Positions 1 through 8,334 of a stretch of 64,000 nucleotides of DNA are shown here, one piece after another (position 1 is the first letter of the stretch; each line of letters starts with the position of its first letter). Origin of the DNA: Schizochytrium sp. TIO01 (Eukaryota > Sar > Bigyra > Thraustochytrida > Thraustochytriidae); contig SMSO01000033.1 of the NCBI GenBank assembly GCA_004764695.1, positions 77,001-141,000 on the forward strand, written 5' to 3'. The translations under genes were made by a program, and so were the position numbers. The notes under the pieces were generated by a model. The model saw only the letters and a program-made list of their open reading frames with translations, was not told the origin of the DNA and did no database searches.

Positions 1-79
1 AAAGCCTTCATAGATACATAGAGATACCATTGAATACTGTGCAATACAAATCTTCAGTCTCATTTGGTCCTCAATGAGG

Positions 80-955
80 ATTACACTCGCTGGTTTGAGC
101 ATAGGGTAAATCTTCGATGTTTTCTTATTAAACATAAGGTTGTATAGATTCCCATAGGAATATTTCGTTGCGACTTCAGTGCCTTGAGGGATGGGGCAAA
201 GGCGATTCGCTCACAATAGACTAGCCTTTTGGTTGAGCTATCATAAAGAGCTACGCCAACGGTTATGATTCCAATATCAATGCTAAATAAAGACTAGGTT
301 GCTTCTTTCGTTGCCTATAATTTTCAATCGGAATCTGTTTATCTTGAATTCGATATATAAGTACAAATGTGAGGGCATTATCCAGGAGGGGCAATAAAGA
401 GTTTGATTAATTGTTTTGAAGATGATAGTCTTGTTCGTTGTCTTGCTTTCAAAGCTAGACCAAATTATCAACGCCAGAGTGGCCTCCACCAAGCAAAAGA
501 GAATTTCGAACGCCAGATTCGTGATCTCCAGCGCACCTGTCTAGACATCCCGGCAGTTTACAAAGACATCGGTAGAGTGGTCAACTTCAAAAGGCCGGGC
601 TTGCGCGCCCTGGTGGACTACCGAAATTCACCGCAAGCCTCCGTAAAAACTTCCGTGTAATCCTTTTGCCTAATTTTGAGACCTCCCAAATGGTGATTAA
701 TAACAAGGCAGTTCGAGTGATATGTCGTTGGGGTCACTTGAGCTTCTGGCAAGCGCTCTTTCACAAAGCCGAGCCTTTTTCCCGCCAGTGGTGAAAACTT
801 GTAATTTGCCGAGATGCCTACACTTGAAAAACATGCAATGAATGCGGTACTATCCGCGACAAGCTCGGAACATCCCAAGGTTTTCAAATATCCGAAATGC
901 GAATACGTAGCCGATCGTGATTTCCACGCCGCGGAAGGTACGCTTTCGCGCCACC
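80..955 (+). pseudogene. Decayed Fanzor / TnpB-like RNA-guided nuclease gene
   Basis: Fanzors are eukaryotic relatives of the IS200/IS605-IS607 TnpB nucleases, which cut DNA guided by an element-encoded RNA. Three family blocks are readable in the correct order. (1) Around 148-217 (frame 1) an IP..IF...ALRDGAKAI block resembles the region before RuvC-I. (2) At 651-695 (frame 3) there is FRVILLPNFETSQMV, the RuvC-II strand, with the acidic Glu codon at 678-680. (3) At 831-931 is the terminal zinc finger: TCNECGTIRDKLGTSQG in frame 3 (834-870), then KYPKCEYVADRDFHAAE in frame 1, with the DRD..AA RuvC-III signature at 913-933. A KLDQIINARVASTKQKR helix block (frame 2, 449-505) sits between (1) and (2). 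The copy is dead: TGA stops at 792-794 and 825-827, at least four frame changes, one zinc Cys replaced by Tyr, and no recognisable RuvC-I aspartate block in the shortened 220-445 interval. The left end may extend beyond the window. No TnpA recombinase is seen. Confidence 0.78.
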
Positions 956-1558
956 AATCCACCCAAGAACATGAGCAAGAATTATCTCATGAGTTGCGGG
1001 TTAGTCTTTATACAAACCGGCGATTGGGCCTTGCCCTGCTCTGTCACCAAAGGAATTTGCAAATTTTGCATATTATACAGGTTGATTCCAAAGTGTAGTA
1101 GGCCCCAACACAGTTGGAAAAGTCCGCAACTGGCAACAACAGGGGCGGGCTCAAAAGTAAAAGAGTCTTCCCAAAAGGGTATGTATATGTCGTGTCGGTT
1201 GAGATCTGGAGGTTCCTCTATGGTGGATTGGTATGCATTTACTCAGTCACCGGGAAACAAGATCACGCAAGCAAAGAGAGAAAAGGCAGTTTACTACAGT
1301 TCAATTACAGAGGAGTATGATTTTATGGGTAAGATACACAGTTTATTCAGAGGGATGAGGTCATTGATATGATCGACACACGTAGTCTATAGTAGAAGTA
1401 AGGGCAGTAGTGTACACATGCAGCACTTCGCTGCGAGGTGAGATCGATCATACATATATTTTCCATCATTGGAAGTCTTGTTTCGTCACATGATACGACT
1501 GATTTAACCAGCCAGAAGTCATCACACACATACACATGCTTGAGAAGCTCACACGTAT
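956..1558. other. Spacer downstream of the Fanzor relic
   Basis: No supported gene. Open stretches here (for example the frame running from 917 to 1372) begin inside the Fanzor relic at a GTG and show no motif. In intact Fanzor elements the guide RNA normally overlaps the 3' end of the gene, so 930-1150 is where a fossil guide-RNA region would lie, but I see no diagnostic structure. Confidence 0.4.
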
Positions 1559-5111: not shown

Positions 5112-5168
5112 TCATACATAGAATAGATACATACTGAGAATAGATATAAAGAGAATAGATACATACAC

Positions 5169-5286
<118 letters not shown>

Positions 5287-5556
5287 CTGTCGGTCGAAGC
5301 CTTTTGTTGATGATGGCAAACCTCGCGAAGGGAGTGGATTGGAGCGCCGACGCCTTGCTTTGCAGAAGGACGAGCACTCAGAGGCCCTGAAAGCCGCGCC
5401 AACTCGCATGAAAGCCGCGGGTACGAGCAAGAAGAGGGGCCTTCAAAGAACCGACGATAACAATAACGGGAAACTTTGAGGGACTTTTCAGTTCTCTTTC
5501 AAGAAGAAAGAAAGGTCATTATCGATATTTTATTATTTTTAACGAAACAACCTCCT

Positions 5557-5649
5557 GTATGTTTGTATGTTTGTATGTTTGTATGTTTGTATGTTTGTAT
5601 GTTTGTATGTTTGTATGTTTGTATGTTTGTATGTTTGTATGTTTGTTTG
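5557..5649. repeat. (GTATGTTT)n 8-bp tandem repeat
   Basis: About 11 copies of an octamer that looks like a compound of GTAT and GTTT tetramers. Confidence 0.95.
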
Positions 5650-5724
5650 ATGCTATCAAATTAAAATGTTAATGAATTCATTTCATTAAAAACGCATTGA
5701 AAGGAATGAAACAACTAGAGGTAC

Positions 5725-6667: not shown

Positions 6668-7274
6668 GTGCGCACTTCAAAGGATCCATCCTCCGCCAGA
6701 AATCTGCGGCTGCGGCGGCTTTCGGGCTCTCTGGCCGCCACTTCTGCAGAGGCTGAGTTAAACCAACGCTCATGGCCGTGTGCGGCAGAAGAAGAGTGCC
6801 GCCACTGAAAGAGGGTGAATCTTCGGGGACTGAGCAGGTTGCCGCAGACGAGCAAGCGACGAGGAAGAAAGACCAGAGAGCCTCTCTGGGTTTGAAAGAA
6901 AACGCGGCGGCCTGCATGCGTAGCAGTCGGCTAGCACGCTCTAGAGGGCCGCGATGTTCCAGGTTATCATGGAAGCTTGGACACGAGGGATCGATCTCGT
7001 CTCGGAGTCTTGACGTGCCAGAGGTGCGGGATCCCGCCCCTCCTGAGGCGCCTGCGGAGGCCTCGAAAGAACGCGGAGCTCCTTCTGCGAAACTTGAGGT
7101 GCTTGAGGTGCAGTGGCCGGCGCTCATTATGGCAGCAGTGCAGGAGCACTTGAGGGTCACGGCGCCTTCTGCGGAGGAGCTGAGAGAGGATGCAGGAGCG
7201 CAGTCCACCCTGAGGGGGCCTAGCGCCTGGTTAGCTACTACTAGCCAGGTCGGCGGACTAGCTTTGATGTATGA
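6668..7274. other. GC-richer spacer between microsatellites
   Basis: Reading frames are open on both strands (6772-7260 + and the complementary frame) because of the high GC, with Ala/Ser/Glu-rich products running straight into the ATGT repeat. There is no motif, splice signal or asymmetry that tells me which strand, if either, codes. Confidence 0.35.
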
Positions 7275-7428
7275 ATGTATGTATGTATGTATGTATGTAT
7301 GTATGTATGTATGTATGTATGTATGTATGTATGTATGTATGTATGTATGTATGTATGTATGTATGTATGTATGTATGTATGTATGTATGTATGTATGTAT
7401 ATGTATATGTGTGTGTATATGTGTGTGT
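7275..7428. repeat. Long (ATGT)n microsatellite
   Basis: More than 30 GTAT units followed by a GTGTATAT tail. The MYVC-type and IHTY-type reading frames over it are artefacts of the repeat. Confidence 0.97.
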
Positions 7429-8334
7429 TCGCATCATCGTCATTGCTGCTCCGAACTGCTTCAAGAGAATTCAAACTTCGTTCACAGTTAATTCGAGACT
7501 CGCGCCGATACCACTTCAACAATCAGAGGTTCGGCTTTTAAAAGGTGGGCGTTGTGATGCAGAAAATCGGGTCTTCCGACGCTCTCAGGAGTCCGTCCGT
7601 CTGTGATGCGTGCGAAGCGAGAAAGAGCGCCATTCTGCGGCTCGGCTGAAAACTGAGTGAGCGTCAGAACCTTTTACTATACTACTATGTGTTCGCATGT
7701 AGCTAGCTAGCTAGCAAGCCGAGGGTCACTTGCCAAGGGACTGCCTCTTTCTCAGGTGTTTCAAACGCTCGAAATTTCAAGACATTTATTGGGCTGATAG
7801 TAGACAGATTGAGAGATAGATAGATAGATAACTTGGAATGAGCGGCTCCGAGTGTGGTCTGTCTGGCAAAGAGTTAGAGCAGCTTTGGCTCTTCCACTTG
7901 GTCAAAGTTTGCCTCGAAAACAGAGACCGTGGTTGAGTTCTGGACTCGCTTGAAGCCTTGAACGCACACGTGTTCAAGCCTTCTCTTCAATCTCATCTAC
8001 TGGCACGTCAATCCCCGATTTTTATTTTCAAGTTTTGCTTTTTGTTTTTAAAAACATGTTTCTATTCACAAAATAGAAAAAAAAAAACAAAAAAACTTTC
8101 ACTTCAACTTGGCAACTTGAGCTTCTTAGTTCAAGCAGGAAGTTTTTAAAAAAGATGCTTTTGTTGAGAGAGAGAGAAAGGGAGAAAGAAGAAAACTGGA
8201 AAGACAGACATGAAAAAGGGTTCTTCAAAGCAACTACTAGTCGTGCATAGGCACTATTACCAGGCACCTACGTATCTACCTACGCACCTACTGCATCATC
8301 GAACGATCACCATCGCCGTTCAGACACAGCCAAG

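Follow-up and report, generated by a model that had tools for sequence, protein, structure and literature searches.

The beginning of the window, by which we mean the whole 64,000-nucleotide stretch of Schizochytrium sp. TIO01 DNA analysed here, carries protein motifs of the TnpB/Fanzor superfamily of RNA-guided nucleases with no single reading frame joining them. The question raised by this locus is whether one nuclease gene has decayed there, as a sequence-only reading had proposed for positions 80-955, or whether the fragments have some other origin.

Composition of the relic

Four blocks had been taken together as the remains of one Fanzor gene, spread over three frames. Three of them indeed derive from tnpB and their frame is broken, but they occupy two frames rather than three (Table 1). 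The fourth, ALRDGAKAI (181-207, frame 1), is the antisense of IAFAPSLKA in a resolvase-like gene on the minus strand, a correspondence found in 6/6 related loci. Descent from a Fanzor-type nuclease was borne out, although the kind of search first proposed, a translated or profile search tolerant of frameshifts, gave a divided answer. The Pfam profile PF07282 reached only E=0.007 on the window, below its own cut-off; Pfam searches of single window frames gave nothing decisive, NCBIfam had no match for the one window frame tested, and neither Rfam at the gathering threshold nor a tRNA search returned anything in the window. Because PF07282 alone was below its cut-off, the proof of identity was drawn from the genome's own intact copies, which match strongly: the intact TnpB aligns to 645-887 in frame 3 and to 877-960 in frame 1 (tblastn, E=1.7e-30), and the intact TnpA to 379-618.

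Table 1. Features at the start of the window.
Feature	Position	Strand	Evidence and details
Holliday-junction-resolvase-like gene fragment and upstream flank (residues ~7-121 of 187)	1..463	-	blastn, 83% identity to L030-L035
Very probable 5'-truncated copy of an internally deleted, non-autonomous IS607/Fanzor2 derivative	464..1093	+	blastn, tblastn
TnpA (IS607 serine recombinase) fragment, frame 1	464..618	+	blastn, 77% identity to L009 element 362-516; tblastn with intact TnpA, E=7e-13
Ancestral internal-deletion junction	618..620	+	element ~516 joined to ~1712
tnpB 3' part	620..960	+	RuvC-II region LLPNFETSQMV, 663-695, frame 3; zinc finger CNECGTIRDKLGTSQG, 834-881, frame 3; RuvC-III ADRD block PKCEYVADRDFHAAE, 892-936, frame 1
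Right end with three hairpins, possible guide-RNA scaffold region	961..1093	+	~994-1023, 1026-1036 (by eye), 1058-1070

Positions 1-463 are not part of the Fanzor relic. They form a separate repeat shared with six other loci, and the resolvase DNA homology starts about 2 bases to the left of the window and stops at 463. The TnpA match overlaps this repeat with its first 85 bases; we set the border of the element at 464 because the resolvase homology reaches 463 and the transposon homology runs from 464. An unbroken 187-residue frame is present in 5/6 of the related loci, the one on contig C22 being broken. P0003, an unbroken relative of this length, matches the phrog_1770 Holliday-junction resolvase family (E=6e-7) and aligns to the window fragment piecewise (tblastn); a slightly longer resolvase frame of 190 residues had no Pfam or NCBIfam match. 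In the six loci (L030-L035, on contigs C35, C34, C30, C13, C1 and C22), the resolvase-like gene adjoins a 300-residue ORF and an ORF with RCC1 repeats, and this cluster exists in several near-identical copies, two of them less than 20 kb from a contig start. More resolvase relatives, at about 31% identity, lie on C2 and C31.

The Fanzor-type relic thus occupies 464-1093 instead of 80-955, and the picture of a single nuclease relic was incomplete in two further respects: a fragment of an IS607 TnpA had gone unreported, and about three quarters of tnpB had been lost before the element spread. LLPNFETSQMV does lie in the canonical RuvC-II region, as had been proposed; in this clade the catalytic Glu precedes the zinc finger by about six residues (PMC10711439). 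The window relic reads Asp at that position and an in-frame TGA after it, and the tnpB part contains a frameshift at ~877-887. RuvC-I is missing owing to a deletion that is older than this copy. With RuvC-I deleted, Glu changed to Asp and the TGA, the window copy lacks the RuvC D-E-D triad of a working Fanzor nuclease, and it encodes no working nuclease.

Complete elements in the same genome

The sequence-only reading had also suggested that intact copies may exist elsewhere in the genome and had proposed a genome-wide search for them. When the host assembly (64 Mb, 37 contigs) was searched, PF07282 matches were found at 34 places, open frames of more than 600 codons at 15, and complete elements encoding both TnpA and TnpB at 8. 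The complete reference element (L009, 2256-4459), about 2.2 kb long, encodes an IS607 TnpA and then TnpB. Its TnpA matches the IS607 transposase model NF033518 (144.7 bits, cut-off 110) and PF00239 (E=5.7e-20), with MerR and HTH_17 below cut-off and PDB matches to the TnpA proteins of ISC1926 and ISC1904; the complete copies thus have the serine recombinase with an N-terminal MerR-like HTH by which IS607 is recognised. The TnpB carries the motifs LDPG, ESYTSKTC and ADRD, and a frame of 601-682 residues with all three is present in 14 of the 18 aligned copies. The accessible part of PMC10711439 gives as the Fanzor fingerprint a DPG motif combined with an alternative Glu that precedes the zinc finger by some six residues; 16/18 copies have a frame with DPG and ESYTSKTC, the two without it being L024 and L025. 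These copies also have the setting of Fanzor2, a eukaryotic genome and an adjacent tnpA of IS607 type. A conserved RRM protein of this genome pointed to a stramenopile-like host: among the best 120 of 921 matches to it, the few that carry a name come chiefly from oomycetes, together with a brown alga.

Both genes are open in 8/18 copies (L009, L010, L014, L016, L018, L020, L022 and L023), which are 0.943-0.998 identical to one another in pairwise comparison, and the IS607/Fanzor2 family has been active recently. Among the other copies, L012 and L021 have a stop in tnpA, L011 is 5'-truncated, L019 has a tnpB frameshift, and L024 and L025 are more diverged and broken. Four copies (L013, L015, L017 and L026, the last cut at its 3' end) share some 290 inserted bases within tnpA, and their tnpB remains open; the insert includes a run of CTAAC units, with no target duplication visible by eye. 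The protein P0004 is 99.2% identical to the L015 product over 601 residues, 98.0% to that of L013 and 97.7% to that of L014. Its source label is mmetsp, which we take to be a transcriptome project. Because of this label and the 99.2% identity to L015, tnpB is probably transcribed in this organism or in one very close to it, and the transcript most resembles the type with a broken TnpA. About 2 kb from one complete element there is an ORF on the minus strand (L012:6450-7664) that looks to us like a Copia-type retrotransposon polymerase.

Among the matches listed, the best-scoring relative of solved structure was the TnpB-like protein L79 (PDB 9b0l; E=3e-19, residues 275-474), presumably a mimivirus protein, the likeness spanning about 200 of the 483 residues in its best stretch. 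IS607-type elements with Fanzor2 are already known from eukaryotic and viral genomes; ACa-1, CRv-1 and ISvMimi are those named in the available portion of Bao and Jurka (2013; PMC3627910). The elements described here likewise combine a TnpA serine recombinase with Fanzor2 in the genome of a eukaryote, as those do in a eukaryote or a eukaryote virus, but differ from them, as far as that portion goes, in that one genome holds 8 near-identical complete copies, a subfamily with TnpA broken and tnpB open, and a larger, old family of deleted copies. The presence of these three together in one host makes the role of Fanzor in the spread of the element testable.

Deleted copies and their ends

Placed on the L009 element, the window relic corresponds to positions 362-516 joined to 1712-2193, position 1712 lying at about residue 356 of 483 in TnpB. 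A common junction, joining element 461-524 to 1704-1747 within alignment error, was found in 19 of the 20 relic loci compared (L039-L058); the sole exception, L044, is old but of full length. A search with one derivative copy located at least 39 further places with 71-78% identity, and in 38 of these the match continues through the junction without a break; the count is a lower bound in that 40 of the 231 candidates were scored. One deleted copy (G000:C32:70400-71208) lies about 6 kb before the start of the window. When flanks of 600 bases (14 right and 15 left) were compared between copies by blastn, no match was seen. Because the junction is shared, the copies are many and dispersed, and their flanks are unrelated, we attribute the derivative to one deletion event that was later multiplied.

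Decay of a single full-length Fanzor gene at this site, until it was broken over three frames, would also leave tnpB motifs interrupted by a frameshift and a stop. Such a history is very unlikely here, since it accounts neither for an internal deletion common to 19 loci nor for a proposed N-terminal block that is antisense resolvase in every related locus. Still less credible is that the relic copies are a family made by segmental duplication or gene conversion and not by transposition: a few copies do lie close together (at 868k, 878k and 885k on C24, and two in L049), but the 14 right and 15 left flanks compared between different copies do not match, and the ends of the copies coincide at the same element positions. 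The window copy has what is expected of a non-autonomous derivative, namely the shared ancestral deletion and the right end, its left end having been lost at 463/464. We therefore hold it to be highly probable that positions 464-1093 are an old, 5'-truncated copy of a non-autonomous IS607/Fanzor2 derivative that spread from one deletion; as such, it is an ordinary dead copy of its kind.

The source of this derivative would have been an IS607-type transposon with tnpA, encoding the serine recombinase, and tnpB, encoding the Fanzor2 nuclease. In one ancestor, an internal deletion of about 1.2 kb would have taken the end of tnpA and roughly the first three quarters of tnpB while both ends were kept. 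The shortened element may then have been multiplied in trans by the TnpA of complete relatives before mutational decay set in, and in the window copy part of a resolvase gene would have taken the place of the left portion. In L046 and L050, two deleted copies, the tnpA half and the tnpB half both resemble L044 more than L009. The same holds for the tnpB half of the window copy (73% to L044 vs 67% to L009) but not for its tnpA half (75% vs 77%). An older source lineage for the derivative is likely from these comparisons. A similar excess of remnants is known from the 'Ghost' Spu-1 copies of Spizellomyces punctatus, for which the accessible part of Saito et al. (2023; PMC10432273) gives 134 loci without a Fanzor ORF vs 42 full or partial ones. 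There, as here, many copies keep the transposon ends without a Fanzor ORF; Spu-1, however, is a Fanzor1 element with inverted repeats, whereas the present family is of IS607 type and its deleted copies keep coding pieces of both tnpA and tnpB.

The right end of the window copy is TTCCAAAG, followed by TG at 1094-1095. Inspected by eye, derivative-type loci have CTG directly 5' of the left end in 7/16 cases (one of the seven being L044), and their right end is followed by TG in 9/20 rows. Of the complete copies, again by eye, 13/15 have AG at a distance of 3-8 bases 5' of the left CAAAAA-like motif, and 15/15 have AG at the right end. IS607 elements recombine at a short core, GG, according to the available text of PMC4058570 and PMC10711439. 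The end patterns are consistent with recombination at such a core, and crossover may have taken place at a dinucleotide. A simple IS607 model nevertheless leaves unexplained both the incompleteness of these patterns and the stretch of 3-8 bases that separates the left dinucleotide from the conserved left end and varies among complete copies. In one attempt to find an empty site, the joined flanks of L015 retrieved only the locus itself. Unlike the other copies compared, L019 has an 11-12 base direct repeat (AGAAGAAACAAA) at both ends.

Guide RNAs had been suggested as possible companions of the intact copies. Two strong right-end hairpins are conserved in complete and deleted copies alike, with 90.8% of cells paired over 21 rows, and a third was recognised by eye; their covariation, however, did not exceed the shuffle control in these 21 rows, and four loci searched against Rfam at E of 1 or less matched no family. 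The position and shape of the right end suggest that it may function as a guide RNA.

The tnpB frame across tnpA

In L009, the frame of tnpB is open across the whole of tnpA, in +1. Codon shuffles of this element gave 3.3 stops on average and zero stops in 0.7% of cases. Relatives show similar upstream stretches: among the best 120 of 983 TnpB relatives, the conserved start region is preceded by 130 residues or more in 49 and by fewer in 47, the remaining 24 being cut before they reach it, and the 37 N-terminal stretches inspected by eye resemble the same +1 reading of tnpA. We compiled a DNA sample of 102 loci, consisting of the best 80 of 187 loci from bacterial genomes and 22 from viral contigs; the latter were found with an alignment query, an earlier single-protein scan of the viral contigs having returned no relative. 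The bacterial loci found include five from Anabaenopsis elenkinii, a cyanobacterium with DPG-type IS607. tnpA lies upstream of tnpB in 90/102 loci, and tnpB is in +1 in 87/90.

Stops were analysed in the 64 elements with a tnpA of at least 180 codons. The +1 frame is open from within the first 70 codons in 61/64 (the exceptions are L077, L131 and L148), and the shuffle P value is at or below 0.05 in 49/64 and at or below 0.01 in 40/64. Over codons 0-35 there is no depletion (84 stops seen vs 83.8 expected), while over codons 35-260 only 29 stops were seen vs about 277 expected; L077 alone contributes 18 of the 29, and 54/64 elements have no stop beyond codon 35. Across tnpA, the ratio of stops seen to expected is 0.31 in +1 and 1.02 in +2, and in the alternative frames of the downstream tnpB it is 1.08 and 0.90. 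When TnpA was clustered at 70% identity, 23/24 representatives were open; at 60% the figure was 13/14, and at 50% two of the three clusters left. The pattern of stops indicates that selection keeps +1 open over tnpA from near codon 35 onwards, with no such effect earlier in the gene. The DPG and alternative Glu motifs were both found in 58/64 elements, and six failed this test. Among the copies of this genome, the three phases have 9, 9 and 9 variable columns of 135 in the overlap; in the part that is tnpB only, the counts are 71, 45 and 44 of about 426. Adaptation to eukaryotes was ruled out as the origin of the open +1 frame, since the bacterial relatives are open too.

The controls were 11 other IS607 elements from plasmids, called canonical in that none had DPG among its motifs, 3/11 having no DxG motif at all. 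In none of the 11 does the tnpB frame stay open through tnpA; upstream of tnpB, open runs reach 47 codons at most. Mild depletion in the tnpB frame was nevertheless seen in 3/11: L162 (3 stops vs 6.7 expected, P 0.032), L166 (23 vs 28.1, P 0.004) and L171 (8 vs 15.1, P 0.002). A Nostoc TnpA without tnpB had 5 stops in +1 vs 6.6 expected. At the protein level, we compared 64 rows plus L009 with shuffles over 150 of 1794 pairs, passing over stops and omitting the first 35 codons, and obtained an excess of similarity with a BLOSUM z of 3.60 in +1 vs 2.77 in +2, and an excess of identity with a z of 2.97 vs 2.53. In the controls, the excess similarity was near zero in both frames (54 pairs). These values suggest a weak protein-level signal for the +1 frame.

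We think it fairly likely, on the stop-codon evidence, that in a Fanzor-like (DPG) clade of IS607 elements, one that ranges from cyanobacteria to the present eukaryote, tnpB overprints tnpA in the +1 frame, beginning near codon 35. Translation of this frame would give TnpB an unrecognised N-terminal extension of about 170-190 residues, and one stretch of DNA would encode both the catalytic domain of the transposase and part of the nuclease. The alternative, that the open frame is non-coding and its depletion a product of mRNA structure, codon-pair bias or shared ancestry, is possible but rather less likely. It would fit the mild depletion in the three controls and the only somewhat higher excess similarity of +1 over +2, but it sits poorly with a strong depletion confined to +1 of tnpA, with a sharp onset near codon 35 after which 54 elements have no stop, with the persistence of the open frame in nearly all clusters at 70% identity, and with its absence from all the controls.

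That IS607 ORFs often overlap (PMC6188088), or may be overlapping or separate (PMC9956272), is stated in the accessible parts of earlier reports; in the literature searched, a search limited in reach and covering such partial texts, we found no account of a near full-length overlap of tnpA and tnpB. The closest known group, as described in the available part of Yoon et al. (2023; PMC10711439), is that of the pro-Fanzor IS607 TnpBs, mostly cyanobacterial, which share with the present family the DPG motif, the alternative Glu and the pairing with an IS607 TnpA. In the pro-Fanzor loci compared here, the tnpB frame is likewise open in +1 over most of tnpA. The pro-Fanzor TnpBs differ in being bacterial, and their best tblastn segments are 27-42% identical (best 80 of 187 loci). 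If overprinting is true, current annotations of TnpB/Fanzor2 genes in this clade may be too short and the proteins studied so far may miss their natural N-terminus. It would also tie the evolution of nuclease and transposase together at the level of DNA, and would be relevant to the expression of a bacterial two-gene element in a eukaryotic host.

In L154, from Prochloron didemni, the tnpA and tnpB matches lie in one continuous frame, as if the two genes were fused. Elsewhere in the window, long simple repeats at ~5150-5300, 5560-5660 and 6900-7450 give rise to artificial ORFs such as KERKKERK and YVCMYVCM.
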